A stretch of 64,000 nucleotides of DNA, from contig OX387197.1 of assembly GCA_947561715.1 (NCBI GenBank), forward strand, positions 7,251,001 to 7,315,000. The letters are read 5' to 3'. The notes under the pieces are model-generated. The model did no database searches, was not told the DNA's origin, and was given only the letters and a program-made list of their open reading frames with translations. How positions within the stretch are numbered: the first letter of the stretch is position 1; every line of letters begins with the position of its first letter. Position numbers and translations under genes: made by a program. Positions 1,612 through 41,800 of the stretch are shown here, piece by piece. This DNA is from Ascidia mentula. Lineage: Eukaryota; Chordata; Ascidiacea; Phlebobranchia; Ascidiidae.

Positions 1612-4600
1612 TTAGTCGCATTTCACTTTCATTCTTGAGGTTCTAATTCCACCCCATCCTCTTTTCCACATCCACCAGCTCAAAGTATTCTGGGTATTTG
1701 CAGTGGTCGACCACAGCCCGTTTAGACGGGCATATCCGCACGCTCTATGCCACCAAGCACCGGCAGATGCTTCACAATTTTCCGAAGCTCTTATACCATG
1801 GAAAATACAACGGTTAGTGTGTAAGCATTAACACCGTCATTAAAAAGTTCGGTCGTCATTACTTACAATAAATCATTGTCTCTGTCTCTTGTGGTAAATT
1901 TCATTCCGTTTTGGTCACTGTCTGATGGAGTGATAGCGTTTCCTGCATTGCCAGAATATCCATATATAGATATTTCATAGAGATTCGCTTCATTACCAAT
2001 GCTAAAAGAACTGAAAACAATACAATAATTACGTTTGGTGTTTATGTAACATATGCCTATACAAGAAATACTACACTATTTCAGTTGGCTTGATGCGCGT
2101 CACTCTAAGGTTGGTAACCAAATATATGACTCAGCAAAAATACTCAAATGTGAACCCGGAAGTTATGTAGACGTCGTTTTGGTTGAACCGTAAGAAAGGT
2201 TGTCAAAAGTTAAATACAAATGAAGACTTAAGATGTGACAAGAATTTATACTACGATTCTTTTGCAGTAGTTCATTTACAAGTAAAAAACAACAACTGGG
2301 ATTCTTTTATCTCAAGACACTACAATATATTTGACAATTTTATTGTCCTTTATATACCTATATTCAGCAAAGGCGTGTTCAGTAGAAACATGGCAAAGGT
2401 CTACACGTAGGCGACACCTCGTGGACGCATTCGTGATGCGATGCAGTTCATCCAAACCTACCAATGTGTGTGCATTAAGTTTTGTGATTCATTAACAATC
2501 TTGCAAATACAATCACAGCTTATATGAGGACCCTGCAATGCATTACACGTGAGATTTAAAGTTTTCGGCATAAAATTTTTAGGTCTATACCATGATTTGT
2601 TCTGTGCAAAGCTGTGAATCTTTGCATTATCAAAAAAAAAACTACTGGTTTTTGAAAGCAGAAAATCTAAGGTGTTTAAACAGCCAGGAGTTTAAAAACC
2701 ACTCAAGTTTCATTGGAATACAAACCTAACCAAAACTCTGACGAACTAGTTCCAAACCCGTTCTTGTAGCCCACCCAATCTCGATCGAAGCTTACTGAAC
2801 CATCAAAACGGTTTTGAACCACCTTAAAAGTAGTAGGAAGGTATTTTCATGTTTTTGAACAACAGAAAAATACTGCCCTACAAGCCAGTGAATGAAAGTA
2901 TTAACATTTGGGATCCTTTCAATATTCTAATGATGTTGTGTTTGCAATTAACCGTATATAGCTCTATTTATTTCATATGAACACATAACTGTTGGATATT
3001 ATCATTCACTTGCCTACAGAACATATTTTCCCAAAAGAGTTTTAGAGTAAAACCCATGGCATCAAATTTATTTATCACCTGCCACCCAACTTGCGAGTTT
3101 TCTTCCGGAAACACAGGATTCGATATTTCGCAGCCATTCACTGTTTGAAAAGAAGCAAGAAATGTGATTGCAGCTGATAGTGAAATTCGTGTTGTTTCAT
3201 TATTTTGCAAAAGAAAAATTGTTGATTGTGTTGTGGACAATTTATAGACTTACGTGATTCACATAGCCTTCCCGTGTAACCTATGACACAGGTGCAACTA
3301 AAATCTCCCGGTTGATCAACACACGTACCTCCGTTAAGGCAAGGGTTTACAAAAGCGCAAGCGTCCACATCTGGTAAAAAAGCGTCGAAATGAATCCAAA
3401 ACGTATACAAAACCTCAACATTCCTTGCTTCAGTTTTTTACATAATTAACCTTCACCCTTTCACATTGTGGATGTGTTTTGGTTGCAATAACGTTTTTAC
3501 TTGCCTGACAATGTAAACCAAGGCGAACCAACGCAGACATTCTGCAACTTTCCACTAGACGAATCGATAAATATGTTGCTGCCATTCGTGTACTTGTAAA
3601 TCGTTACTTCACCACCAGAACCTACATATTTTCTGATATTTTCTTGTGAATGTTTGAAATTGAAGTTTGGTTTACCTGTAAGATTTCCGGCTTCAACCGC
3701 AGCGAAACATATGGAAGTATTCAAATGAAAAGCATTGTTTCCACAAGAATAAGTTTGACCTCGGCAGCCAGAAGGGCAAATAACGGTTTCAATTACGCTG
3801 TGGTTGTTGCTGATGGTTGAGCATATCACTGAAACGAAATGATTTTTTCCTATTTACTGGTTATTTAGATTTCACTTCAGGGTTCATGGTGTTGTTGCCA
3901 AAGTGATTTCTTATTACATGTTCTTATAAAATGTAAAAAAAAAGCACGAAATGTTACTACAGCATCTCCGCCAAGAGTTTGAATACTTTTAGTTTCAAAT
4001 GCTGTAATTTGTTAAATCCCGGCTTTGGATCTTGTGTTACATTTTACGTAAACTTTCGCAGCAAAGAAGCGCTAGTGAATACAAACTGTAATTTTGATTA
4101 CTATTTATAGAACACATACAAAAAGCAACGACGCTAATGTTTTATTTCTCATTAAACTAATTACTTACGACGCTTTAAGTTTTAGTGTTGGGGAGTCGGG
4201 TCACTTTATATAGTTAATTGATTATAATGGTTATCGGTCGGGCAGAGACTACAGTTCTATGGCTAGATATATACAGAAAGATATTTAAACATACCAGCTT
4301 CACATGTTCTCCCTGTATAAGCAGAAGGGCATTCGCAGCGGAAATTTTCCAACTGATCGACACAAGTACCTCCGTTAAGACAAGGATTTCCCACCACACA
4401 GACATTCACATCTAATCACAAGTGATTACTCTATCAAAATACATAGATCTTTGCCTATAATAAAGAAAATTACAAAGAAAACCAAGTTCTTGCCTGACAA
4501 AGAAAACCAAGACGGTGCATCGCATGTATTTTCCAAGCTTGCATTTGGATTAATAAATATGTTGACCCCGTTCGTGTACTTGTAAAGAGATACTTGCCCA

Positions 4601-6943
4601 CCGGATGCTACAAAGTGCATGTCCATAAATACATTTTTGTGATTTGAACCGGGTTTAGGGCGAGCAACATAGCCTATGTTTTTACCAACATTCAACGCAA
4701 ATATATAGCACCCTCATGTCTGAAACTATAGGTCTGATAAATGGTTGAAGTTACAACCGCACAAACTCAACAAATCTGAGAACCCTTTATCAAAGTATTA
4801 AAGAAACAAAGCCTGCTGTAACAATCTACACTATACATTTCGTTCAAGATAAAACAATGGGTGTATTACATTAACTAGTACAAAAGCTAAAATTTGTGTA
4901 AAAATAAACAAAAAAGCGGGAATGCAGACATCGAACTAATTATAGTAAATTTGAATGGGGTGACTGTTTTTGCTTATTCACATACGCTCTAAAACCACCC
5001 CTCTTGTTATACCACTTACTTAGCCTGTAAAGCGTTCTGGCATACCTGTAAGTTTTGCCACTACGATCGCAGCGGTGCATATCGAACTATTCAAATGGAA
5101 ACCAGTGTTTCCGCAGGAGTAAGTTCGTCCTTGGCAGTCCGGAGGACAAATAACGTTGGAGACTGTACCCAAGGCGCTACCGGATGTTGAGCATGTCACT
5201 GCAAATGTGTGATTTGGTAGAAGAGTTAAGCATTAAAATGTTATTGTAGAATGTTGCGTTTTAAGCATTGTGGACATATCAACTATAAGGTGATGTTAGT
5301 AACAATGTCATACCAATTAGTTAGTAAGCGTATTTTTCGTTTTTTTCGTTTATTTTTTTGTACAGCACTACGTATGGCACCGTGTACCCTATTCCATTTA
5401 AAGAAAAAACAAAATCACCTATTTTTTTCCTGAATAAGCGGTGGCGCAAATACAACCGAAATCCCCCAGCAAATCAACACATGTCCCTCCGTTGAGACAC
5501 GGATTTCCAAAGGCACACGCATCCAAATCTAATAACAATCAATCAATCTTGGTATAGTTGTTTCTCGTGTTAAACACAAAACTGTTCACTATCATGCATA
5601 GGATTGTTACTTGCCAGTTAGTGTAAACCACGACGAAGCACTGCACCCATTTACGTTAGCCGGTGTGTTGATAAATATGTTGTTTCCGTCCGTGTACTTA
5701 TAAACCTTGATTTGACCACCCGTAGCTGAAAAGTATTTATCGCTTGTAAATTGTTGTTTTGAACCCACTGCCTGGACCGGTTTGGAAGATACTATTACAC
5801 CGGGTTACAAAGTTTTCGCCAAACTTGATCCACATAGAGGCCTATGTAAAACAGAAATCTGTGCGAATACTAAAGCTATAATTTAGCGTACTATTTCAAT
5901 TCAAATATATGCCCAAAACTAACAGGTGGTTGCCCTGTACACATCTAACTATTAAAATTCGCACATATTTCTATTTTGCACAGACTTGTATGTGGATTAG
6001 GTTTGGCGAAAACTTTGTGACCCGGTGTTGTAGTAGATTTTCCGTCTGGTTCACCAGTAAGTTTTCCCGCTTGAATTGCAGCAGAGCATATCGAACTATT
6101 CAAGTGGAAACTATTGTTTCCGCATGAATAGGCTTGACCTTCACAACCCGGTGGGCAAATGACGCTTGTGATGGTTTGCTGTGTATCACCGGTTGTTGAA
6201 CAAGTCACTGGAAACAGAATGCATTAAAACAGTAATCACGACGATTCCTATGCGGCATTATTACTTCCAAACGTGAACGCTGTAGATCCTGTTGGTTTAC
6301 AAGTTTGACTTTTCACTCCATTTTGAATGGAAGAAGAAAATGTATTTTTTCCAAATGTTTTGAACACTCGTATCAGCCCTCCAGAATCTAATTAAATAAA
6401 TTGTCATGAACATGATGTGCTGTTGCCAACATGGCTCTCACGGATGAAAGTGCAAATGCACTACGTGTTTCATGCAGTCCATCCACATAAACCCGCAAGC
6501 AATTGCCTGTTGTTACCTATACTCTTACCGTCAATCAGTTGTTCGTGTATTGCTGCCAAACACACCGGGCCATCAGCGTAGACGCCGCTTCCACATAACG
6601 CCGAGTTTTGCTTCAAGCAGTTTGGTGGACAGATTACTTCCGAGATTGAGTGATTCAGCATTGAGAATTTCGTTTCGCAATTCACTAAATTAGGCATAAA
6701 AGTGGGTTTGGTTTCGATTTACGTTTTTTAAACTTTTTTCGTGAGCATAAGTAAGCTAAATATAAACCGTTACCTGAAACACCCAAGCTATAAATTAACG
6801 GCTCAGATGAAACGACTTTGTATACTACAAGAATATATTGAACGGTTTTATTGTTGACGATGTAAGTATTTTTACGTACCTGTGTGAGTCAGGACAGGGT
6901 TTCCCATGTGAAGAAGCACCACTATCAACAACACCCCAATCAT
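1612..6943 (-). CDS. Secreted LCCL(x4)-EGF-fibrinogen-related protein
   Basis: I read 16 coding exons: 6880-6943, 6529-6684, 6265-6387, 6055-6207, 5615-5725, 5046-5198, 4494-4607, 4295-4411, 3676-3828, 3505-3621, 3254-3370, 3079-3140, 2726-2822, 2358-2457, 1867-2010, 1612-1789 (1,959 nt, 652 aa). A 21-codon signal peptide ([18 protein letters not shown]) is followed by four LCCL domains, each split over two exons; the first halves carry ICPPGC-type and xSSICxAAI motifs, the second halves GGxVxxYKYTNG. Two EGF exons ([12 protein letters not shown]) follow LCCL3 and LCCL4. The last five exons encode a fibrinogen-related domain with [17 protein letters not shown], the calcium-loop-like DRDND, and [17 protein letters not shown]. 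Its N-terminal subdomain looks shortened. All repeat exons are phase 1-1. LCCL domains occur in cochlin and Limulus factor C, and FReDs in ficolins and FREPs, so an extracellular carbohydrate- or microbe-binding role is inferred. Three introns after the LCCL second halves start with GC. The exon at 5419-5528 is left out because it is broken. Confidence 0.85.
5419..5528 (-). pseudogene. Broken EGF exon inside the LCCL-EGF-FReD gene
   Basis: After LCCL2 there is a third EGF exon beginning [19 protein letters not shown], homologous to the intact 117-nt EGF exons at 4295-4411 and 3254-3370. After CATAYSG the frame meets an A-run and then a TAG, so the sixth cysteine and a phase-1 end are missing. 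The exon up to the next GT is 110 nt, not 117. Skipping it preserves frame because flanking exons are phase 1-1. It may be a decayed exon, a route to a short isoform, or a sequencing error in the A-run. Confidence 0.65.
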
Positions 6944-9900: not shown

Positions 9901-10073
9901 GTTAAACGTCAAATTAGGGTTTGGTCACTTTCAAAACGGAAGACACATTTAACTAAAAGATGATGAACTCAGGGTAAGATGCATTTTTTGTTGCGTCAAT
10001 TAAATGTTTCGACATTCCTTAACATTGCGAAATATAGAATAGGCTAGGCTATAACTTGAACATCATACGTCGC
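6944..10073. other. Intergenic between FReD gene and HSDL2
   Basis: About 3.1 kb between two genes that diverge from each other, so it should contain both promoters. I see no tRNA or conserved exon. A period-10 repeat (tgatttttgt, about 2.5 units) lies at 9121-9145. One long orphan frame at 8262-8813 is listed separately. Confidence 0.5.
8262..8813 (-). CDS. Orphan 183-codon open frame, doubtful
   Basis: The longest uninterrupted frame in this intergenic stretch starts MMDVEMIRPTEVLRYIEIRI. It has hydrophobic runs (around WVSSFLAFLVTMC and YVLASIIFSFLYIRFV) that could be membrane segments. I recognise no family, and it has no splice partner or neighbour that supports it. A chance frame is quite possible. 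Confidence 0.2.
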   Translation of the reverse strand: MMDVEMIRPTEVLRYIEIRIHRLNFTSDFSRQIYSPHYLVNGLLAAHYYGLLPGKDLVLTGLPCLPYFSNIWVSSFLAFLVTMCNETRFFLIFCYCAPLVNVSNSDWKHRFYNNYVLASIIFSFLYIRFVCVEISQWIKIEGHWNKKCGYFCYPDDHTSITHIPNFHLQSQCDMQPNGTHTTG

Positions 10074-12243
10074 ATGTTTTGCAGAAAACTTGCGGGATAT
10101 ACCATTTTTATAACCGGGGCAAGTAGGGGCATTGGCAAAGCCATCGGCCTGAAAGCGGCTAGAGATGGTGCTAATGTGGTAATTGCCGCAAAGACGGCCC
10201 AAGCACATCCAAAGCTTCCTGGAACAATTTATACTGCTGCAAAAGAAAGTAAGCAAAACCTGGTCACTATTGTGGCCTGTGCAATTTTTATGTCCTACAC
10301 TTGCGACTTGTCTGGATGAACTGCATGTTTCACATTCACACAACCTTTAGTTGAAGAAGCCGGAGGCAAATGTCTTCCATGTATTGTGGACGTTCGTGAG
10401 GAATCGACCGTTCAGTCAGCTGTTGATGAGGCTGTCAGGACCTTTGGTGGCATTGATATTGTCATTAATAATGCCAGTGCCATCAGCTTGACTGGCACCT
10501 TAGACACACCAATGAAGAAATATGATCTTATGAACCAAATAAATGCTCGAGGAACATACCTTTGGTAAGTTGATGTTTCAGAGCTATAAACATTTGTTCT
10601 ATTATCTTGGCTTTTAAAGTTAATGCAAACTATTACAGTTCCAGAATCTGTCTTCCACATTTGCTTAACTCAAAGGAAAGTGGCAAGCAACCTCACATTC
10701 TCAATATCAGCCCTCCTTTAAACATGAAGCCAATATGGTTTAAAAACCACACCGCTTACACCATGGCCAAGTTTGGCATGTCTATGTGCGTGCTTGGAAT
10801 GGCTGCAGAGTTTCAGGACAAGGGTGTGGCTGTCAATGCTTTGTGGCCAAAGACAGGTGAAAAGGCCATTTAGTCTTTTAACCAGCTTAGTCACATAATA
10901 AAAAGTTTGTAAAGCACCAAATGAACTGGAATGACTCTGTAGAAAAATAGCGTTGGGTACCATTCCATAAAACTTGTTCATTCCAACAAACACACATAAA
11001 AAACTTGATATTTTTTGCAGTGGCATTTCTTATTAATTTATTGTCTCGGTTTCTTTGTAGCCATTCTTACTGCAGCCATGGAAATGCTTGGGGGAAAAGA
11101 TGTTTCCTCACAATGTAGAAAACCTGAAATAATGGCAGACGCCGCCTATGCAATTCTCACCAAGGATGCAAGCTACACTGGAAATTTTGTCATTGACGAT
11201 GAGCTTTTGGAGAAAGAAGGCATCACAAATTTTGATCAGTATGCTGTCGAAGCAGGTACACCTGACAAAAAGCTTGTGGATATTGTAAATATTGGTGAAG
11301 ATTGGTTGCGCCTTGTTAGGGCATTCCCAAAGGAGTAAAAAGCAAAAGAACATTGTCAGATATGTGCTGTGATTTACAATTCGTGTGTAAATTAAATTAA
11401 AAGTTTTATACAGATTAAATTTCAATGTGCTGCTTGTTGATATTTTTGTTGGTCTCTTTCAGTTTTGTAATTTATGTCACTGAATGCAAAAATGTTCTGC
11501 CGCATGTAATGTGTATCATGTGCAATTTTAACAAAAGTCCTGTTCAGAAATCACCACTGTTATTTTGATGAATATTACATTCTTTAACTTGACCACTCAA
11601 AAATTAAATCAATAATTAAAAGCGAATGGTGTGTCTTATTTTGAAGGAAAGCCTTTGATGTTGGACTTCTTCTTGGAAGGCAATGAAGTTGATTTTCAGG
11701 AGCAGCTTTCAAAAGCTCATGAAAATGCCCAATCATCATCCGGAGGTGGAAGTGAGGTACAGGGGGTCTTTAAGAGAATTGAGGCAGCTCTAAATGAGGA
11801 AGTTGTATCTGGGACTAAAGGCATTTTCAAGTTTGTTCTGTCAGGTAACGCTGTAATGGCAGTTCTTATTTAGTAAATAAGTCTATTTTTGAGGTAACAC
11901 TTGTTACAAGTTTAGAGCTTTACAATGTTCAGATGGTATGCAACAAACAGTTAATTTTTTTTCCATGTATGTTTAATGTTCCACAACCTTTCTTTCGTTC
12001 CAAGGTGAAACCCCAGAAACTTGGGTAATAGATCTCAAAAATGGCAGTGGTAGCATCAAACAAGGTGATGGCGACTCTGATGTTACCATGACAATGAAAC
12101 CGGAGGATTTTGTGTCAATGTTCCAAGGAAAACTGAATTCAACAGCAGCGTTCATGCAAGGAAAGCTGAAAATCGATGGCAATATGATGCTTGCTATGAA
12201 ACTGGAGAAACTCATGAACACAATGCAGAAGTCCAAGCTCTAG
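10074..12243 (+). CDS. HSDL2: Hydroxysteroid dehydrogenase-like protein 2
   Basis: Six exons: 10074-10248, 10351-10564, 10639-10856, 11061-11255, 11647-11844, 12005-12243 (1,239 nt, 412 aa; human HSDL2 is 418). Residues 1 to about 290 are a short-chain dehydrogenase: GASRGIG binds NADP(H), VNALWPKT and the NNASAIS strand are typical of HSDL2, and Y-T-M-A-K supplies the catalytic YxxxK. The C-terminal ~110 residues are an SCP2 sterol-carrier domain (FKRIEAALNEEVV, then TWVIDLKNGSGSI and GKLKIDGNMMLAMKLEKLM). The protein ends in SKL, a canonical type 1 peroxisomal signal, so peroxisomal location is likely; substrate is unknown. I start at the ATG at 10074 because an upstream in-frame codon is TTG. 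The stop lies 376 bases from the convergent MRPL55 stop. Confidence 0.95.
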
Positions 12244-25394: not shown

Positions 25395-27215
25395 TACTAA
25401 GTAGAGACTGAACACTGCGCACGTACCAACGACACAAATAATCTCATTGCTCTGTCAATAGACAACGCATGAAGTTATAACTAAGTTATAAAAATGTTAA
25501 ACATAACATAAACAAAGATTTTTTAAAATTTAAATCAGATATAAAATCAATCTTATTCTTTTTTAAATGATAAAGGTGTTTTGCGAAAACATTCAGATAG
25601 GTTCCGCTTGAATGCACCTGGTAACTTCGCGGCAGTTTTAATGAAAAATGCATGGGAGAAAGTGGGGTACTCGCATGTTTTTTCGCATTTGCGTGATTGT
25701 AGGCCTTTTGATTTAGTTCTGGGCTTTGGTGCAACTACTAGAATACTTCTGCAAACATATTGGGACAAAATATATGTTGTCAGTCAGATATACAGGGCTG
25801 AGGTAGCGATTGCATGCGACACTTTTTCATCATAACGAATACTGGTGTGCCGAAACTTCATACCAGTCATAATAATGTCTTTTCTTGTTTTCTTACCTTG
25901 CGCAATTTGCCTAAAAAATCAACACTTGTTCAGAATTGTTATATGTGTAGTTGCATGCCTTTTTAACTGCCTTGTAAACAACATGTGGGATTCATGGGAA
26001 GACCTAACTGATGAGGAAATTGAAGAAGCGTTCACTCTAGTCTAGCAACAAAATATAGTGTGCAGTGTTGCAGGTTGCCAAGTCCAGTGCGCCACTTGCA
26101 AGGCAATGAAAACGCACTTCAGACAAACTCATTCGAGACAACAATGTATTTCACCACCCACAGACGAGGAAATAAATATTATATATAACAATGCAGTAAA
26201 ATTGACTGAAAAGCACACAAAACTGGAATCCACTATACCTTCACTACAAGCTAAAGAGCACGTCAAAAAATTGTTTCTTTCATTTCAAGAAAAGTCTGAT
26301 CCAAATTTGTTTTACATGATGTATTCTAAAACATGCAAAGATGCCTCAAACATTTTTGACATGCCCCAAAGCCAAGCAGCAATGCTATTAATTAAAGTCC
26401 ATGCCACAATTTTAAATCACTTCAGAAAAGAAAGCCATCAAACCACGACTATATCTGGAATCAACGTGACACAGGTTGGTGAAATTTTGTACAATCTGTG
26501 ATACAAGTACATGCACAATGTTCCTTTAACCATTTACCTGTTTCTAGATATCCTGGAATACATTGGAGGGTTTCTTCTTCGCAGGGGGTTTAAAAAATAT
26601 AATGAAACAAAGCATGAGGATCTGTTTAAGGCACTATGCCAGGAAAAAACAAACGGAAAATTTTTACAAAAAATGGAAAAACAAGGAAAAAGGTTACTGT
26701 GCCCTTCTGAGGATTTTTTAAATTGTTTTACAAAAGATGTACTATTTGCACAATATTGAAACTGGAAAACAAGCTAAAAACATCATTTTTTTAACCTGTT
26801 GCAGGCTGCAACTGGCAGTCACTACAGTAAAAAAGTATAGACCTTTTGCCTGGGTCGTCCCTGTGCAGTAAACTGTAATAATATGTATACTGGTATATAT
26901 ATTTTTGGCATAAAACTTGATTTGGGCATCGGTAAGTTTTGCGCTAAAAGTGTCGCATGCAATCGCTACCTCTGCCCGGTATATCTGCCTGACGACTGAT
27001 GTTTTGTCTTAATATGTTAGCAGAAGTATTCTAGTAGTTGCACCAAAGCCCAAAACTAAATCAAAAGGTCTACAAATCACGCAAATGCGAAAAAACATGC
27101 GAGTACCCCACTTTCTCTTAGGCATTTTCATTAAAACTACCGCGAAGTTACCAGGTGCATTCAAGCGGAACCAATCTGAAAATAAACGCAGTGTTCAGTC
27201 TCTACTTAAGGCCCG
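25395..27215. mobile_element. DNA transposon with long terminal inverted repeats
   Basis: The sequence aagtagagactgaacactg at about 25398 recurs inverted at about 27206. Inside it the left segment starting ggttccgcttgaatgcacc (about 25600-25830) recurs inverted, with a few mismatches, at about 26950-27175, giving inverted repeats of roughly 230 bp. Between them lie damaged transposase-like frames (26058-26759). The left outer part holds about 170 bases absent from the right. I found no clear target-site duplication. The superfamily is not assigned. Confidence 0.65.
26058..26759 (+). pseudogene. Degenerate transposon protein, copy 1
   Basis: Two open stretches in different frames. The first (26058-26501) opens with a C-x4-C-x12-H-x4-H zinc finger (CSVAGC ... 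THFRQTH) and runs through PSLQAKEHVKKLFLSFQEK; its first in-frame codon is GTG, so it is probably an internal exon. The second (26511-26759) contains EYIGGFLLRRG, which resembles the Y-hh-G-hhh-R-K/R motif near the C-terminus of several cut-and-paste transposases such as P-element/THAP9 types. A simple intron between them does not restore phase. The family call is inference from short motifs. Confidence 0.4.
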
Positions 27216-27984
27216 TTTACACTACAGACGATTCCGTGTTTGTTTTATTGTGCGCGCGTGCTGAGTTGTGCTGGGATGGGATGTGCCGGTCTGTGCTGGG
27301 ATGTGCTCGCTTTTGCTCGACGAGCAAAAATTCGGGCACAGTTGGGCACATTGGACGTTTGAAGCGGGTTCGCGGCACGCTTCTTACCCGCTTCCCGCCA
27401 TTATCGGAAAAAGCGATACGCATTACAGCCCAAGCTAGTTTGGAAGCGGTTTCGGCGAACAAGCTTAATATGGGTGGGTTCGGAAGCTAGTTGAGCGAAC
27501 TAGCTTCTTTTTGCCTATCGGCTGATTAAAAAATATGGGGGCAAAGTCAAGTTTGGTTAGATTTCCATCACGAATTTTGATGTAGTTGGATATTTAATGC
27601 GGTTTTATACTTTTTTTTTCAAATTTTGAATAAAAAAACTAATTTAAATGTAAGTATAAATGGGCTGTGACTTTGACATTTGGAATGAATCACCTAAAGA
27701 CAATTGACGGCAAAAGAATGCTATGATGAAAATACTTTTTTAATGATTTTTTTGTGTTTCATAATGCTTTTAATCAACTGTCATGTATGTCCAAAAGGGA
27801 GTAGATAAAAAGTATTGAACAGATATCTTGGCGACGAATTGTAGTAAAGCACCACAACTAGCTTTGGTTACAGACATGGACTGCGCAAATAATTAGGCTT
27901 TGTTTCCTCACAAACAAGCATACATTTTTTATTTTGAAATTAACAAATGACCTGATGTAAAACATAGGTAAATGTTCAACTACA

Positions 27985-28251
27985 GATCTGGAAAAGGACA
28001 GTCGTTCCAAGCAAATAATCACCTTTGCCTACGAAAAGGTCGCCCAAATATTCGGCTTAGTCTTAGAGAATGCTATGCACCAGGATGTAGCAAAAGCAAA
28101 AAAACTTTTCTCAACCGGCATCGTTTTTAATGATTTTGAACCACAACTGTCATTTTACAACAAACCCAAAACATTTTGCGCATTTTGCAAGAACATCAGA
28201 GCATGTAAATTGAGGCCCGAAGCTCGCTCGTTATGGTCTGTTAAGAACTAA
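27985..28251 (+). pseudogene. Unassigned 88-codon open fragment, copy 1
   Basis: An open frame with no initial Met that follows a possible acceptor (caactacag) and reads DLEKDSRSKQIITFAYEKV and later KPKTFCAFCKNIRACK, with a cysteine-rich end. It may be a remnant of a transposon exon. No family was recognised. An identical copy lies at 30887-31153. Confidence 0.2.
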
Positions 28252-28257
28252 TTAGTT

Positions 28258-28397
28258 CTTTAATATGAACAGAATAGCCAATACAGTGCTCGAAAACTTC
28301 ATGTAAACGTTTCGATTGTTTCTACAACCATTATCAATACCGAAACGTTTACATGAAGTTTTCGAGCACTGTATTGGCTATTCTGTTCATATTAAAG
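28258..28397. repeat. 57-bp perfect inverted repeat (hairpin), copy 1
   Basis: Arms 28258-28314 and 28341-28397 are perfectly complementary over 57 bases around a 26-base loop. Each arm ends inward in cgtttcg/cgaaacg. On the minus strand the loop region reads TTGATAA, one base, a GGTTGT/ACAATC stem, then GAAAC-GTT, a degraded version of the hammerhead-like layout seen in the Penelope-like element ends. Confidence 0.8.
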
Positions 28398-28959
28398 ATC
28401 TACAAAACCGTTAGTTATGTTCCTAATTAGTTCTTCATGGCTCAACGGCGCAAGCTCGCTCGCAAACAATTTCATGTAAACAGGGCTAATATCTGTTTGT
28501 GCATTGATGCAAGAGTGCAAGGCGACTTTCGCGGCAGTTTTAATGAAAAATGCATGGGAGAAAGTGGGGTACTCGCATGTTTTTTCGCATTTGCGTGATT
28601 GTAGGCCTTTTGATTTAGTTCTGGGCTTTGGTGCAACTACTAGAATACTTCTGCAAACATATTGGGACAAAATATATGTTGTCAGTCAGATATACAGGGC
28701 TGAGGTAGCGATTGCATGCGACACTTTTTCATCATAACGAATACTGGTGTGCCGAAACTTCATACCAGTCATAATAATGTCTTTTCTTGTTTTCTTACCT
28801 TGCGCAATTTGCCTAAAAAATCAACACTTGTTCAGAATTGTTATATGTGTAGTTGCATGCCTTTTTAACTGCCTTGTAAACAACATGTGGGATTCATGGG
28901 AAGACCTAACTGATGAGGAAATTGAAGAAGCGTTCACTCTAGTCTAGCAACAAAATATA

Positions 28960-29661
28960 GTGTGCAGTGTTGCAGGTTGCCAAGTCCAGTGCGCCACTTG
29001 CAAGGCAATGAAAACGCACTTCAGACAAACTCATTCGAGACAACAATGTATTTCACCACCCACAGACGAGGAAATAAATATTATATATAACAATGCAGTA
29101 AAATTGACTGAAAAGCACACAAAACTGGAATCCACTATACCTTCACTACAAGCTAAAGAGCACGTCAAAAAATTGTTTCTTTCATTTCAAGAAAAGTCTG
29201 ATCCAAATTTGTTTTACATGATGTATTCTAAAACATGCAAAGATGCCTCAAACATTTTTGACATGCCCCAAAGCCAAGCAGCAATGCTATTAATTAAAGT
29301 CCATGCCACAATTTTAAATCACTTCAGAAAAGAAAGCCATCAAACCACGACTATATCTGGAATCAACGTGACACAGGTTGGTGAAATTTTGTACAATCTG
29401 TGATACAAGTACATGCACAATGTTCCTTTAACCATTTACCTGTTTCTAGATATCCTGGAATACATTGGAGGGTTTCTTCTTCGCAGGGGGTTTAAAAAAT
29501 ATAATGAAACAAAGCATGAGGATCTGTTTAAGGCACTATGCCAGGAAAAAACAAACGGAAAATTTTTACAAAAAATGGAAAAACAAGGAAAAAGGTTACT
29601 GTGCCCTTCTGAGGATTTTTTAAATTGTTTTACAAAAGATGTACTATTTGCACAATATTGA
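28960..29661 (+). pseudogene. Degenerate transposon protein, copy 2
   Basis: Identical to 26058-26759, shifted by 2,902 bases within the second tandem copy. It carries the same zinc finger and the same frame break, so the damage predates the duplication. Confidence 0.4.
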
Positions 29662-32855: not shown

Positions 32856-35096
32856 ATGAGGCGGCCACGCAGCAGAAACATGAAAGTTTGCCTAATTCTT
32901 TGTGGAGTTGTAAGCTCGGTAACTATGTATGTGGTTACGTCGCAAGTCCATAAATGTTCTGAAAGCAGAACCTCAAAGGAAAGGATGAAAATACGTGATC
33001 AATTGTGGTCAGAAATGGAAAAGTACAACGAAGACCACAAAGCGGTAAGATGTGTCCATAATGTTGTCAGTCTGTGTTCATGTATTAAGAAAGGACTTTA
33101 TTCAAACAGTATTTTCATAACATAAACATTCGTTTAGTTGAATCAGCTATGGTGAAAATCTGTTCTAGTGCGGCGCTTGTATTACATCTCGGCGAACGCG
33201 TTGACAATCCCTGCGTTACTATACAAAATCGTAAAACATGGACCAAACATTTTGGGCTAATCCAAATCGCGGCATCGAAACATAGTATTAATGTCTTGCG
33301 TTTCTTCTTTGCTCGTCGAATGAATGCTAATAATATAATGAATAGTATTTGGTGGATGCTTGCAGAACATTTCACAAATTACTCGACTGTGACATGCAAG
33401 CGCTGTTGTGCGGAATACACTTTAGGCACGAACATAACATTGTGTTTGACAAGATTGACTCAGATTAGTTTGATTCCGGGAGTGTTTTAACCAACACGGA
33501 AACCAGAGTCTGTGACAAATCGAAAGGCAATTTATGCTATTTATTCGGGATATCAACACAATTGCAGCTCATTTTAGAATGAAAGTCATCGCCTGCCAAA
33601 AGTGATTGGTATTGGTATTAAGAAGTGTGGGACTGACGGCATCATTAACTTCCTCAACCACCACCCGCTGGTGAGAATTCCTGCAGAGATAGAAATGTTC
33701 TTTTTCGACTCTGGGAACACTGACTACAATTCATACAAGTACGTTGATCATTTGTTGTTATCTTATAGCATCACTTGTCCTTGTTAGCGCAAAAGAAACC
33801 AAGTCATAGATGCATTTTCTCTAAATTATCCCACATTTTTCGGAATACTATCTTTTTTGTGACAATTATGAGTAAAATGTTGAATAATCATACAACGAAC
33901 AGAAATAATAATAATAATTAAAATTTTAAGTGTTTCTATGTGAAAACTATAAAAAACTTCGGGAAAAATATTTGAAACGGGTGTAATTTACAATTGCCTA
34001 AAACTTTGCATGGCAACAGGGATAGAATGCCTCCCACCAACGACAGACAGATTGCGATGGAAAAGACTCCGATATATTTTAGTGAAGGATCGGATGACGT
34101 CCCTGAAAAAATTTCTACGGCGATTCCGAACGTAAAGCTGATTTTAGTTGTGTGTGATCCAACACAGAGAGCCTTATCGGACTACGTCCAGGAGGTAAAA
34201 ATGTTTCAAAAAAGGAATGTAGCTCTGCAGGCCAGTCCGAAGAATTGTATTTTAACTATAAGAGACTATATAACCAAATATGGTTTTCAATGATGTGCCA
34301 AAGAGAATGGCATTTTCTCACAAGCATGCTGGCAGATCAACGTCTCCTACGCCTGCCACTCATTCTATACCGTCCAGGTCCATAAAAAAGGGTATACAGT
34401 TAAAAGATACCATTGTAAATACAACTTAGGTGAATGTACGCAAAAAATCACGGATATATCATCAAAGTGAAAACACGACATTTTCAATCATTTAAAATCA
34501 AACCTACATGTTTGCAGCGGATAAGATACGCAAACTACGGCGACCAAATGATTGGCCAGTACGAAAGTTTTGATGAATACGTCGGCGATTACCTACCAAA
34601 GGTGCAGATTGAGTTGGTTGAATGGATGGAACAGAAGAAGCGCGGCGAGCTCAGAAAACATCTAATTAAACTGACTCAAACTGACTATGCTACAACTATT
34701 CTCTCAAACGGATTATATACAGCTCATATTCAAAAATGGCTGTCGGTCTTCAACAGTTCCAATCTGAAGATTATTGACGGAGAAAGGTTCATCGAAGATA
34801 CCGGAGGAGTAATGGAGGAACTTCAGGACTTCATAGGAATCCCCAGGATCTTGCTCCGCGAAGATTTTGTTAAGAGTCCCGACCACGGTTTTTACTGTTA
34901 CAGACGATTCACGGAGCAGACTGAATTGGACCAAAACGCGTCTCGAGAGTTAAAATGTTTGATTCCCGGCAAAGGAAGAACTCGAAACGGCCGAAAGAGA
35001 ATTTCTCCTGCGGTTGAGGAAAAACTACGGGATTTTTACCACCCGTTCAACGAACAGTTTTTCAAAGATGTAGGCATGGCGTTTCAGTGGCCTTGA
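32856..35096 (+). CDS. Heparan sulfate 3-O-sulfotransferase-like, Golgi type II
   Basis: Four exons: 32856-33044, 33578-33738, 34020-34194, 34518-35096 (1,104 nt, 367 aa). A short basic N-terminus and a hydrophobic anchor (VCLILCGVVSSVTMYVV) give type II Golgi topology. The sulfotransferase domain starts RLPKVIGIGIKKCGT, parallel to the HS3ST 5'-phosphosulfate loop, keeps a Glu in AEIEMFFFD, has EKTPIYF, the 3'-phosphate block LILVVCDPTQRALSDYVQ, and a C-terminal part with NGLYTAHIQKWLSVF, GKGRTRNGRK and FYHPFNEQFF. The expected enzyme moves sulfate from PAPS to the 3-O of glucosamine in heparan sulfate. Two departures stand out: the usual Arg before DP is Cys, and the usual KKGGTR reads KKCGTD. 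ATG 32856 was chosen because the upstream in-frame codon is GTG; ATG 32880 is an alternative. Paralogue number is not assigned. Confidence 0.85.
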
Positions 35097-35894: not shown

Positions 35895-38800
35895 CTAAAG
35901 CTTTTCTGTTTGAAAGTGGAGCGACAAATCAATGTTAAAAAATAGCAAGGAATCGTCGACGGTTTGTTCCTGTCGTCGAATATTTTCCAAAACTTTATTT
36001 TGAATCGGAAAGCTGTGGTGGCGAGACAAGGCGTCGTGTCGGTCGACGGGAAGTTGCTTCTGACTGTGAATCGGGCTTGGGTTATTGCTTGAAGCGCAAC
36101 CAGACGACAGCTCGTCGGAAAAGTCGACGTCACTGACATTGGAAGCCTTGTCTTTCTTTCCGCCTTCTTTGTCTAATTTCTGTTGGTGCAGTAGGATACA
36201 AATAAATGCGACCAATTCACTTTGCACATAAAGCACTAGCTTTTGACTATAGGATCAGCCTGGTTGTTGTTTGGAATATATATTTCGCCCTGTGGGCATC
36301 TTAGGTTTCTTAAAGGATTCCAAATAACAGCCAGGCTGATCCTGTTGATATAAACTAGTGCTTGTGTGTATATTGCCATTACGGAAGGCAAAAAGCTAGG
36401 CCAGCATCAGCAGTCTATGGTTTAGATCTCAATTTTTCGAGTCATTTAGGCTATCAATTCATTTCCAGTTGTTAACAGTCGTACTAACGAAGGACAGTTT
36501 TCAAATTAACTTGACACACATAGTGCTTTATTTTAACACAGCTGTGATTAAGAAAGGCGGTTTCGCGGAACCCGATATGACTGCATAACAAAACATGAAG
36601 GGTTTCATGAGCTACCATCTCGTTTTAAACAAAACACGCTTAAATTCACGTGTTTGGGTAAATTCTTTGGGCAACAAAGACATGTGAAAAATAAAAAAAC
36701 AATTGCAACAATTTGGGTGAATAATGGTTAAATTCACTTGATTTTTCTGACGTTTTGAGGTTCCTTTTCAACTTAAGTAACCTTGTAGTGTATGGCAGAA
36801 AAACATATTTGGAAACACTGGTTTAAAACAACCTTTTTCCATATGAGATAAAGTTCTGCTTGGATACAGATCACATTACTATACAATTTGTTAATATTAA
36901 AATTGCTATGACAATAGTTCATATGCAATGCATATTGCCTGGTTTACCATTTGTTCTGTACCCACTTTCTTTTCCCCGTCATCATCCAATTCTTTGACGG
37001 TTTCGGCATATGGGTTGCTTGCTATCATGCCGAAATATGGCACTTCATCCACAACTTCATTTGACTTGGATGTGCTTTGCTGATCTGCACAAGGTGGATT
37101 GTGCATATATATTGATAATGATACATTATTAATGTCACATAACAAAACTAAAAATCACATTTAAATGGACATATAGCTTGTTGCAACTGCATTTCAGAAC
37201 AAGTTAAACAGTTGGTATAATTTACTCTGAGAACAAAAACTCTTCATCACACTAACCCTGGACGTCGAGTGCGTTATTCTTCCAATGAGGAGTGTCACGT
37301 CTTTCAACCACCTTCCGAAGTTTCGGTTTTGTTCTATTTTAATTAAAACATGATCAAACACTGCCAGGTTTGTCATTTACATGTTTCCATTAAATCATTG
37401 CAACCATTGTCAATGTAAGCTAGGATCTTATTAAAAACAAATAGCAAGTAGTTTGTTGCTAACGCTGCCAGGCATACTATTTGTAATTAAAAGCTCTTCT
37501 GGCAAAAGAAAACTTGTTAGATCGACGTTTCGGTTGTCATACAACAACCTTCATCAGGATAATGAAGTAAAAAACGCCCACACGGTGATAAATATTCACG
37601 CGCGCATAAAGCAAAAAAGGCAAAAAAGGGCAAAAAAAGGCGAAGGAAACAACACAAGCTAGGAAGCGGGGATGGGGGAAACACCAATAATAGAAAATGC
37701 GCGTCAACAGGACGAAACCGAGGTCTAAAGCATAGCGCCTCGAGGTGCGCAAGACCATAACGTTCAACCAGGGGGCATTTCGTGCAGACCGTTTATCAAA
37801 TTGCGATAAACGGGTGGAAAGAAGGTTTCCCTCTTATCATTAAGTGCGCACCCATGTGCGTTTATATGAACAGACTCGATGAACATCCTCTTGTATCTGT
37901 CCTTTTCCCGGTCCAGAATTATTGTGTTCTCAAAATTAACCGTGTGTCCTGTTGCTGCAACATGTTGCGACAATGCCGTCCCTGCCACCTTATTGGGCTT
38001 GCCAACATCCCGTTGATGTTCCTTTAGACGTGTTCTTAGGGCGCGACCCGTCTCACCAATGTACACCTTCTCACACCCTCCACATGGAATGCGGTATACT
38101 ACCCCTCTAGCATCTAGCGTACCACCAGCGCGATCTTTAGGATGCGATACCAAGGAGCGTAGTGTAACCGCAGGACGCTCGTACACCAGGATGGAAAAGT
38201 CCTCCAGCAGTCTCTTTAAGGTCTCTGAAAGTCCTGGAAAATATGGGAGAACAACCACACCAGCGGTGGGACTTTTGTTGCACTTAGGCAGGGATGCAGG
38301 ATTTTGTCGCAGAAAGGAGATTGGGTAACCGTTTCTTAAAAGAGCATCCCGCACACTACCCACCTCTTGTTCTCGGGCCTTTTCCTCTGTAACAAGATTG
38401 TCCGCTCTGGTGTATAGTGCACGCACTACAGCCCGCTTGTGGGATATAGGGTGCGCTGACCGGAAAGATAGATACCTGTCAGAATGTGTCGGTTTTCGGT
38501 AAACACTCGTGCGTAGGGACCCACGGTTTTCCCTTTGAACAGCAACATCTAAAAACGATAAAATCCCACCATGCTCAACCTCCATGGTGAACTTAATGCT
38601 CGCTTCGATCGAGTTGAGGTGCTTCGCCGTCGCGCAGTCAAGTGTACCCTGGAGGCAAATCGTAGCGTCTGTAGAGAAAGGAATTGCGCACCAGCCGGCC
38701 CACATAAAATCTATGTTGCAGAGCAAAGTGGTTAACTGCATCAAGAGCCATCAACGGGCGCAGCCTAATTTGTCAAGGGAAGAGTTCGCAGCTATCAAGC

Positions 38801-41800
38801 AGTTACGCCATAATAATGACATTGTAATACTCCCTGCGGACAAAGGAAATGTGACGGTGATTATGAATAGATCGGATTACGAGAACAAGCTTAAGTTAAT
38901 GTTGGCTGACGAAAAGACCTACCGCAAAGTGAAGAGGGATCCCTGTCACGTTGTCGAACGAAAGGTTAATGCAATGGTTGGTCGCTTACACAGGGATAAG
39001 CAAGTGTTATCAATAAGGGAGTTTTTCGAGTTGCATAGCACGGATGGGCGGACGCCGTGTCTTTATGGTCTTCCAAAGATTCATAAACCTGGGGTTCCAC
39101 TTAGGCCTATTGTGTCGTTCGTAGGATCTCCAACGTATAATCTTGCTAAACATGTGGCCCGTATTTTGGCCCCCCTTGTGGGTGCAACGGATGAGACCGT
39201 CCGGAATTCTATTGATTTTGCGGCACAGGTGAAAGAATTGCGCGTGGACCACGAAGAGGTAATGGTATCATTTGATGTCGTCTCTCTCTTCACAAACGTA
39301 CCGGTGAAGTTGGCGGTGGAAGTGGCGGCAGAAAGACTGCAGAGAGATGAAACATTGGAGGCACGTTGTTCGTGGCCACTACCGGAGATCGTGGAGTGCA
39401 TTCAACTTTGTCTGGACGCCACCTATTTGTCGTTCAAAGGTGAATTTTACAAGCAAATATTTGGTACAGCCATGGGGTCTCCGCTTTCAGTGGTGGTCGC
39501 CAACATAGTCATGGAGTCCGTGGAGCAAAGAGCGTTGTCAACGTTTTTGAGTCCCCCACGCTTGTGGCGACGTTACGTGGACGATACGTTTGTGGTTGTG
39601 CATCGCGACTACGTGGAATCGCTGCTTGAGCACCTCAACTCGATCGAAGCGAGCATTAAGTTCACCATGGAGGTTGAGCATGGTGGGATTTTATCGTTTT
39701 TAGATGTTGCTGTTCAAAGGGAAAACCGTGGGTCCCTACGCACGAGTGTTTACCGAAAACCGACACATTCTGACAGGTATCTATCTTTCCGGTCAGCGCA
39801 CCCTATATCCCACAAGCGGGCTGTAGTGCGTGCACTATACACCAGAGCGGACAATCTTGTTACAGAGGAAAAGGCCCGAGAACAAGAGGTGGGTAGTGTG
39901 CGGGATGCTCTTTTAAGAAACGGTTACCCAATCTCCTTTCTGCGACAAAATCCTGCATCCCTGCCTAAGTGCAACAAAAGTCCCACCGCTGGTGTGGTTG
40001 TTCTCCCATATTTTCCAGGACTTTCAGAGACCTTAAAGAGACTGCTGGAGGACTTTTCCATCCTGGTGTACGAGCGTCCTGCGGTTACACTACGCTCCTT
40101 GGTATCGCATCCTAAAGATCGCGCTGGTGGTACGCTAGATGCTAGAGGGGTAGTATACCGCATTCCATGTGGAGGGTGTGAGAAGGTGTACATTGGTGAG
40201 ACGGGTCGCGCCCTAAGAACACGTCTAAAGGAACATCAACGGGATGTTGGCAAGCCCAATAAGGTGGCAGGGACGGCATTGTCGCAACATGTTGCAGCAA
40301 CAGGACACACGGTTAATTTTGAGAACACAATAATTCTGGACCGGGAAAAGGACAGATACAAGAGGATGTTCATCGAGTCTGTTCATATAAACGCACATGG
40401 GTGCGCACTTAATGATAAGAGGGAAACCTTCTTTCCACCCGTTTATCGCAATTTGATAAACGGTCTGCACGAAATGCCCCCTGGTTGAACGTTATGGTCT
40501 TGCGCACCTCGAGGCGCTATGCTTTAGACCTCGGTTTCGTCCTGTTGACGCGCATTTTCTATTATTGGTGTTTCCCCCATCCCCGCTTCCTAGCTTGTGT
40601 TGTTTCCTTCGCCTTTTTTTGCCCTTTTTTGCCTTTTTTGCTTTATGCGCGCGTGAATATTTATCACCGTGTGGGCGTTTTTTACTTCATTATCCTGATG
40701 AAGGTTGTTGTATGACAACCGAAACGTCGATCTAACAAGTTTTCTTTTGCCAGAAGAGCTTTTAATTACAAACAAATAGCAAGTATCGTACACTAAACTG
40801 AAACGTACGTTTTCACTTTAATCCACGATGACGACTTCACCGAACGTCCAGAATTTTCTGCCATTCCACTGGCAGTTTGGCGCCCCCGTGTGCCCTGAAA
40901 AAAGTGCAATTGGGATGAGTAAGATTGGTATAGCAACTGTTGTGTAAGCTTTGGCGACTTTTTTCTTTATCACTCCGCAATAGCTTAATAGCTTTACGAG
41001 CTATTTTTCTACAAGATTATCGCATTTAGTGTAGTTCCTTTGTCGTAATCCCATTTTTTACAATCGATGTAAAAACTATGATGTGATACTTATGTAATAA
41101 TTTTACATGCAATTCTACGATGATGACGTACTAGTGAAGAAGTTGTGACGTAAGCCGATCTTGCATTGACGCTGGATGTGACGTGGTAGCGTCGACGAAC
41201 ACACGAGGGGCAGCAGTTCGATCTGCGGAAATACTTCGCAAGTTCTGCTTTTACTCTGTCGTTCATCAAACAGTGGAAGACAAAGATGAAAACGCCCTGC
41301 AAACCAACGTTGAACATGTACTGTACAAATAGTAAAATCTTTACACTGGTAATATATATAACACTAACTAATTGGTCGTTTTGGTGCGAAAGATATATAG
41401 TCAACTTAAGACTGGTTCCTTAGTTTTGCCAGAATCTGTCCCTTTACTAGGCATTGTCATACTATCAGCGAACAGCGACAAAAGAATAATAGAACAAGAA
41501 ACTGAGGATGCCCGTGCAGGCGAAATCGATTTTTCGACAATAATAAATTAGCTGACTTTTATTTGAAACTTTTCACATTAGTAAATTTTTTTGAAACGTT
41601 TCACATTAGTAACTAGTAAACTTAACGTTTCTGCTAACCTGAACGGAATTGCAAACAGTAAAGATATAGGCCATCACCACTGTCCTTTCGTCCACGTAAA
41701 ACAAACCAAATATCCACGTCAGTCCAAGTAAGCAAAGTAATACGGACGAGCCCTTGATCCAAATCCTGCCCATAAAGATCTATTACTTGCAAGACCACAA

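Follow-up and report, generated by a model that had tools for sequence, protein, structure and literature searches.

Our analysis of a 64,000-nucleotide stretch of the Ascidia mentula genome (contig OX387197.1, positions 7,251,001 to 7,315,000; hereafter the window) revealed a gene in which a stem of LCCL and EGF domains is joined to a C-terminal fibrinogen-related domain (FReD). This union of LCCL and EGF blocks with a fibrinogen-like head in one gene is real, far beyond chance. The genome also contains relatives of the gene in which the same stem precedes a FReD, a pentraxin or an F5/8 type C (F5/8C) head. The architecture is far more certain than the function that we propose for it.

The LCCL-EGF-FReD gene and its paralogues

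The exon chain, rebuilt from splice sites and reading frames, runs on the minus strand from an ATG at window position 6943 to a stop codon that ends at 1612. The 16 joined exons form one open frame of 653 codons including the stop, corresponding to 652 amino acids. A sequence-only reading of the window had described one phase-consistent LCCL-EGF-FReD gene with 16 exons and 652 amino acids, and independent splicing returned the same figures. The predicted protein consists of a candidate signal peptide, which is a hydrophobic leader ending in VLTHT (recognised by eye and by a hydrophobicity rule), four LCCL domains, two intact EGF domains and the C-terminal FReD. The LCCL and EGF exons are of phase 1-1.

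A Pfam search of the 652-residue model bore out this domain content, with one Fibrinogen_C match (3.1e-48), LCCL in four stretches (4.8e-38) and EGF in two (2.6e-12). Each LCCL domain taken singly scored 30.3–60.2 bits against a Pfam cut-off of 22.6, and Fibrinogen_C scored 164.9 bits against a cut-off of 22, covering profile positions 37–219 of 221. The FReD is therefore without the first 36 profile positions, and its short first exon is common to the paralogues. The first LCCL domain matched the cochlin LCCL domain (1jbi; E 7.3e-11), and the FReD matched ficolin-1 (E 1.4e-35), tenascin-R (6.3e-34) and MFAP4 (1.3e-32).

Relatives were mapped by tblastn within the same genome (195.8 Mb, 79 contigs). 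Here LN and LC denote the first and second LCCL exons, LN1 the first LCCL exon of a gene, and F1–F5 the FReD exons. Paralogues A, B, D and E share the exon order LN1-LC1-LN-LC-EGF-(LN-LC-EGF)n-F1-F2-F3-F4-F5; copy F was seen from LN1 to F2 only, and copy G without its front. The window gene likewise has the order LN1-LC1-LN-LC-EGF before its head, with n=2, and its first EGF is the broken one. In paralogues B and D, too, the candidate signal peptide has VLTHT at its end, and no candidate was found for paralogue E. More distant LCCL-LCCL-EGF(s)-FReD copies are located at C70 20.24 Mb, C70 3.26 Mb and C67 9.16 Mb. The symmetrical phases had suggested growth by exon duplication, and the comparison supports such growth for the LCCL-LCCL-EGF exon sets, which are of phase 1-1. 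Two LCCL-EGF units are added in the window gene and none or one in the paralogues ahead of the FReD; a sister gene places five LCCL-EGF units ahead of its pentraxin.

The junction between stem and head bears on whether the locus holds two genes head to tail, one with the LCCL and EGF domains and the other with the FReD. Such an arrangement could draw on the other heads that follow the same stem in this genome and on a FReD at C70 17.5 Mb without LCCL in the stretch read (see below). However, the intron between the last EGF exon and the FReD in the window gene is only 113 bp long (3253–3141), and it contains no exon from which the FReD part could start. Furthermore, the spacing between the EGF match and the first FReD match is 116–186 bp in all eight genes compared, a distance too short to accommodate a second gene. 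A division of the locus, the outcome that would have undone the sequence-only reading, is contradicted by this short intron, by the lack of a separate start exon for the FReD and by the junction common to the paralogues; we therefore rejected it, and regard two genes as highly improbable.

The earlier description of interspersed EGF exons holds for the two intact ones, but a third, at 5528–5419 (exon 6), had been overlooked and is broken. It encodes most of an EGF domain, the remainder scoring as EGF in Pfam (1.4e-7), has an in-frame TAG at its end and has no sixth Cys. Among the 16 EGF exons compared (three from the window gene and 13 from its relatives), exon 6 alone lacks this residue. Use as a normal EGF exon was ruled out by the TAG and by the phase shift. 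Skipping exon 6 preserves the frame, and the 652-residue model is open only when it is skipped. Splicing it in would generate a short LCCL1-LCCL2-EGF form, and skipping it the full-length protein. The window gene also shows GC donors on exons 5, 8 and 11 (window 5615, 4494 and 3505), which are the equivalent exons of LCCL2, LCCL3 and LCCL4. In contrast, GT follows the equivalent exons in paralogues A, B, D, E, F and G. GT donors for these three exons were ruled out because the frame is kept by the GC donor only.

One stem with three kinds of head

A search with the LCCL-EGF unit of the window gene revealed a dense LCCL-EGF cluster at C1 4.29–4.66 Mb. Behind the array at C1 4494898–4499019 no FReD match was found, and a pentraxin encoded in three exons is located there. 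When spliced in silico at GT-AG sites, this pentraxin sister gave one frame from the last EGF to the stop (Pentaxin, 2.6e-20), and its EGF-head junction is in phase 1, as in the window gene; both the FReD gene and the pentraxin gene were spliced for this comparison. The LCCL arrays at 4.49–4.57 Mb could be taken for headless ones, a reading that we rejected since the open reading frames (ORFs) behind one array encode pentraxin. F5/8 type C exons follow an LCCL-LCCL-EGF stem at C1 4.608–4.616 Mb (1.6e-9) and 5.184–5.192 Mb (1.5e-12), these being scores of exons rather than of a spliced full domain. The occurrence of the same LCCL-EGF stem before FReD, F5/8C and pentraxin indicates that one stem carries three kinds of head. 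Thus, the architecture is not the lone oddity that it had appeared to be, but a member of a large family.

The composition of the family was estimated from the best 150 of 334 candidate matches to the LN1 of the window gene. For each, we took the nearest domain up to 12 kb downstream on the same strand, choosing among the listed FReD, pentraxin, F5/8C and LN1 positions. The pairings rest on proximity, except at loci that were spliced or read individually, and the decayed neighbour of the window gene is included. The first downstream domain was FReD for 43 of these 150 matches, F5/8C for 38 and pentraxin for 7. Counting any FReD within the 12 kb, 47 of the 150 matches had one on their own strand and 5 on the opposite strand; when the positions were randomly shifted by 30–300 kb, a FReD was in range for 10, 9 and 7 of 150. 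The family is probably larger than counted.

Not every FReD of the genome need belong to the LCCL-stem family. The FReD at C70 17.5 Mb has no LCCL in the approximately 5.8 kb read upstream of its first recognised exon, and it has a site of the classical Cys-His type. A dense cluster of FReD exons, dozens of them among the matches listed, occupies C70:16.87–17.97 Mb, and one LN1-FReD pair lies inside it (C70:17727928). Long tandem arrays of LCCL exons at approximately 0.5–1 kb spacing were observed at C69:1.89–1.91 Mb and C72:5.12–5.18 Mb.

Ligand site, selection and proposed role

The acetyl pocket of FIBCD1 is formed by Tyr405, His415, Tyr431, Trp443 and Ala432, according to the excerpted text of PMC3908420. 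In the window FReD, the calcium DxD motif is present, RDRDND aligning to KDQDND of ficolin-1 (the equivalents of FIBCD1 Asp393 and Asp395), and the two Cys near the pocket are retained in the alignment. In contrast, the Cys-His of the pocket is replaced by Cys-Gly in the alignments to both ficolin-1 and tenascin-R. No aromatic residue stands at the place of Tyr405, where the two alignments are offset by one residue, and Thr and Gln occupy the places of Tyr431 and Ala432, as read from a gapped stretch. Cys-Gly or Cys-Ser was found in all eight FReDs of the window-gene clade whose last exon was read, with no Cys-His among them. The context CGYARLN is conserved in the clade, with CSYARLN in one member and CGFARLN in the inverted neighbour.

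This comparison weakens the candidate role of ficolin-type N-acetylglucosamine lectin for the window-gene clade and makes it unlikely for the window FReD, and a conserved but different ligand site would be expected in the FReDs of the clade. Cys-His is retained at a more distant LCCL-FReD locus (C67 9.17 Mb), suggesting that other family members may bind acetyl groups. The secreted pattern-recognition lectin proposed in the sequence-only reading remains a candidate role.

The ratio of nonsynonymous to synonymous substitution (dN/dS) was estimated by the Nei-Gojobori method; dS was 0.5–2.5 and partly saturated, so that the ratios are rough. Between the window gene and its relatives, dN/dS was 0.12–0.31 for LCCL1 (seven comparisons), 0.12–0.27 for LCCL2 (eight), 0.08–0.38 for EGF (eight) and 0.18–0.31 for the FReD (seven). 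The low values in all domain classes indicate that the parts of the fusion have long been held by selection.

Pentraxin, fibrinogen-like and discoidin heads all serve innate immunity or coagulation in vertebrates. LCCL proteins interact with bacterial cell-wall components including lipid A; Lgl1 binds lipid A, and the released LCCL domain of cochlin limits bacteria, as described in part of PMC10892792. Ascidian ficolins have been placed in the lectin pathway of complement (PMC5465252, in excerpt). We lean towards a soluble or secreted recognition or opsonin-type protein, in which the stem would give reach and avidity and the head specificity. In such a protein the Cys-rich LCCL-EGF stem may extend the molecule, let it self-associate, or bind matrix and bacterial lipid A, as other LCCL proteins are reported to do, and the head may determine the target. 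In this reading, the stem became linked, behind an EGF exon, to one or other of the three heads and was copied repeatedly, and exchange of heads together with changes of stem length, through tandem exon and gene duplication, could generate a germline repertoire. Our fuller proposal is a tentative one: that such a repertoire is built on one LCCL-EGF stem, with its length varied by tandem exon duplication and its FReD, pentraxin and F5/8C heads exchanged by exon shuffling; that the FReD of the window clade no longer has the acetyl pocket and has gained a conserved site, C-G/S-Y-ARLN; and that the family is the counterpart, in an invertebrate chordate, of the mollusc FREPs.

Several observations weigh against our preferred explanation, a secreted recognition or opsonin-type protein. 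The acetyl pocket is not conserved in the window FReD, which leaves sugar binding by it a conjecture. Among the 150 listed LN1 matches, another LN1 came first in 23 and none of the three heads was in range in 39. One EGF exon of the window gene is broken and the inverted neighbour has two in-frame stops, so that the window gene may itself be decaying. This decayed neighbour has an equally low dN/dS (FReD 0.18 against the window gene and 0.11–0.23 against others), so that the ratios speak for old constraint but do not establish that the window copy is still functional. Between the recent duplicates A and G, the FReD dN/dS was 0.70 at a dS of 0.05.

Three findings speak for a reading in which the window copy is a decaying pseudogene and only the paralogues of the cluster are functional: exon 6 has acquired an in-frame TAG and lost a Cys, the neighbour combines two stops with a low dN/dS, and three GC donors stand where the paralogues have GT. 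However, the remaining 16 exons give an uninterrupted, in-phase frame of 652 amino acids, and skipping of exon 6 keeps the frame; we consider decay of the window copy unlikely, although it deserves to be taken seriously. A role in gamete recognition or allorecognition, in which the FReD head would act on the egg coat like v-Themis of Ciona and the diversity would serve self/non-self recognition between individuals, has an ascidian precedent. In the part of PMC8849226 available, v-Themis are fibrinogen-like proteins of the Ciona vitelline coat that are required for self-sterility, and EGF-like repeats occur also in the coat protein CiVC57. Against it, none of the 11 PKD_channel matches in the A. 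mentula genome lies within 1 Mb of the window gene or within 0.6 Mb of the 4.29–4.66 Mb cluster, a result that bears on part of the s-Themis genes, since only s-Themis B and B2 are said to carry this domain in the same excerpts. LCCL has no occurrence in that part of the text (PMC8849226). This role seems to us rather improbable.

A structural protein of the extracellular matrix or tunic, comparable to tenascin or MFAP4 and without a recognition role, would agree with the FReD matches to tenascin-R and MFAP4 given above and with the EGF-FReD order, which is reminiscent of tenascin. In contrast, the high copy number, the tandem clusters including a decayed copy and the replacement of the head by pentraxin or F5/8C would rather suit a recognition family, and we find a purely structural role quite doubtful.

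Antibody-less invertebrates are thought to gain breadth of recognition from large germline families of lectin-like proteins. If the proposed recognition role is correct, tandem clusters in which a single stem is used with three unrelated heads would be a clear example of modular recognition proteins from the vertebrates' sister group, and the effect of head exchange and stem length on binding would become testable.

Other features and comparison with known systems

The exons of the window gene and the positions of its relatives are given in Table 1.

Table 1. Exons of the window gene (window positions), its relatives, and pentraxin matches of the 4.29–4.66 Mb cluster; n, number of additional LN-LC-EGF units.
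Feature	Position	Strand	n	Basis or extent
Exon 1: signal peptide	6880..6943	-		splicing; eye and hydrophobicity rule
Exon 2: LCCL1, first half	6529..6684	-		splicing, Pfam
Exon 3: LCCL1, second half	6265..6387	-		splicing, Pfam
Exon 4: LCCL2, first half	6055..6207	-		splicing, Pfam
Exon 5: LCCL2, second half, GC donor	5615..5725	-		splicing, Pfam
Exon 6: broken EGF, in-frame TAG at end, sixth Cys missing, not in the 652-residue model	5419..5528	-		
Exon 7: LCCL3, first half	5046..5198	-		splicing, Pfam
Exon 8: LCCL3, second half, GC donor	4494..4607	-		splicing, Pfam
Exon 9: EGF	4295..4411	-		splicing, Pfam
Exon 10: LCCL4, first half	3676..3828	-		splicing, Pfam
Exon 11: LCCL4, second half, GC donor	3505..3621	-		splicing, Pfam
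Exon 12: EGF	3254..3370	-		splicing, Pfam
Exon 13: FReD, short N-terminal piece	3079..3140	-		splicing, paralogue comparison
Exon 14: FReD	2726..2822	-		splicing, Pfam, ficolin-1-type matches
Exon 15: FReD	2358..2457	-		splicing, Pfam, ficolin-1-type matches
Exon 16: FReD, calcium-site motif RDRDND close to its end	1867..2010	-		splicing, alignment
Exon 17: FReD C-terminus and stop	1612..1789	-		splicing, alignment
Paralogue A	C1 4.29 Mb		0	LN1 to last FReD exon
Paralogue B	C1 4.30 Mb		1	LN1 to last FReD exon
Paralogue D	C1 4.588 Mb		0	LN1 to last FReD exon
Paralogue E	C1 4.606 Mb		0	LN1 to last FReD exon
Neighbour N, directly left of the window	C1:7247345-7250667	inverted, tail-to-tail	0	same order, two in-frame stops
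Further Pentaxin matches, C1 4.29–4.66 Mb cluster	4502194, 4523164, 4534872, 4561299, 4566412			Pfam

Elsewhere in the window, a perfect inverted repeat with 1144-nt arms (37480–40772) overlaps a reverse-transcriptase ORF at 38539–40488 (RVT_1, 6.3e-7), the GIY-YIG-like C-terminus of which presumably marks a Penelope-like element. A direct repeat at 25626–29403 consists of two 300-nt copies, 100% identical and spaced by 2902 bp; the ORFs at 26046–26501 and 28948–29403 have an identical translation, indicating tandem duplication. An ORF at 34434–35096 contains a sulfotransferase domain (2.2e-9), and the exons at 10038–12243, judged by eye, resemble those of a short-chain dehydrogenase plus SCP2-type protein such as HSDL2. 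In the genome as a whole, a 16-nt query that we take to be the Ciona spliced-leader sequence has 2157 exact copies, compared with none of the reversed control, which supports the origin of the DNA from an ascidian tunicate; among the places listed, a row of copies approximately 720 bp apart is located at C1:15.24–15.30 Mb.

With ficolins, tachylectin-5A and FIBCD1 the window gene shares the FReD fold (judged by sequence), both Cys close to the pocket and the DxD motif of the calcium site. In contrast to the collagen-like stem of ficolins, no collagen family was found in the Pfam scan of the 652-residue model, and the window FReD differs from the acetyl-binding FReD lectins (TL5A, M-ficolin and FIBCD1) in its replaced S1 pocket residues and the missing first 36 profile positions. 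Tenascin has EGF repeats followed by a C-terminal FReD, together with fibronectin type III repeats and without LCCL. DCBLD1/2 combine CUB, LCCL and F5/8C with a transmembrane segment; their joining of LCCL to F5/8C resembles one of the sister groups described here, but they have CUB and a transmembrane segment and no EGF.

Mollusc FREPs are likewise a FReD multigene family (PMC7588048, in excerpt), but carry immunoglobulin superfamily domains in place of the LCCL-EGF stem, and no Ig family is among the Pfam matches of the window model. The v-Themis and v-Themis-like proteins of Ciona are also ascidian fibrinogen-like proteins, and the v-Themis genes are nested in the polycystin-like s-Themis genes in the available part of PMC8849226. 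Cochlin, Lgl1/CRISPLD and Limulus factor C resemble the window gene in having LCCL in secreted proteins, and factor C also has EGF and a lectin-like domain; the partners of LCCL in these proteins are vWA, SCP and CCP/lectin/protease domains, and none is described with an LCCL-EGF array and a FReD in the excerpted text (PMC10892792).

In the open-licence library searched, LCCL domain, fibrinogen and ascidian did not co-occur in any paper, and neither did LCCL, fibrinogen, EGF and tunicate. A tandem LCCL-EGF array with a FReD, or head exchange with pentraxin and F5/8C, was not met in the open-licence literature searched, mostly at the level of listings. The closest named combination is that of the Plasmodium LCCL proteins CCp1 and CCp2, which we take to be LAP2/4. 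In these two proteins a single LCCL domain adjoins a domain called fibrinogen-related in part of PMC10892792, and this domain overlaps a fibrillar-collagen C-terminal call in an excerpt of PMC11285972. The rest of the Plasmodium LAP/CCp proteins consists of discoidin, ricin and other modules in another phylum, and no such families were found in the Pfam scan of the window model. Thus, the bare pair of LCCL and a “fibrinogen-related” domain has already been named in Plasmodium, as far as these partial sources extend, and we class the tandem-array fusion as a new architecture of secreted FReD proteins.

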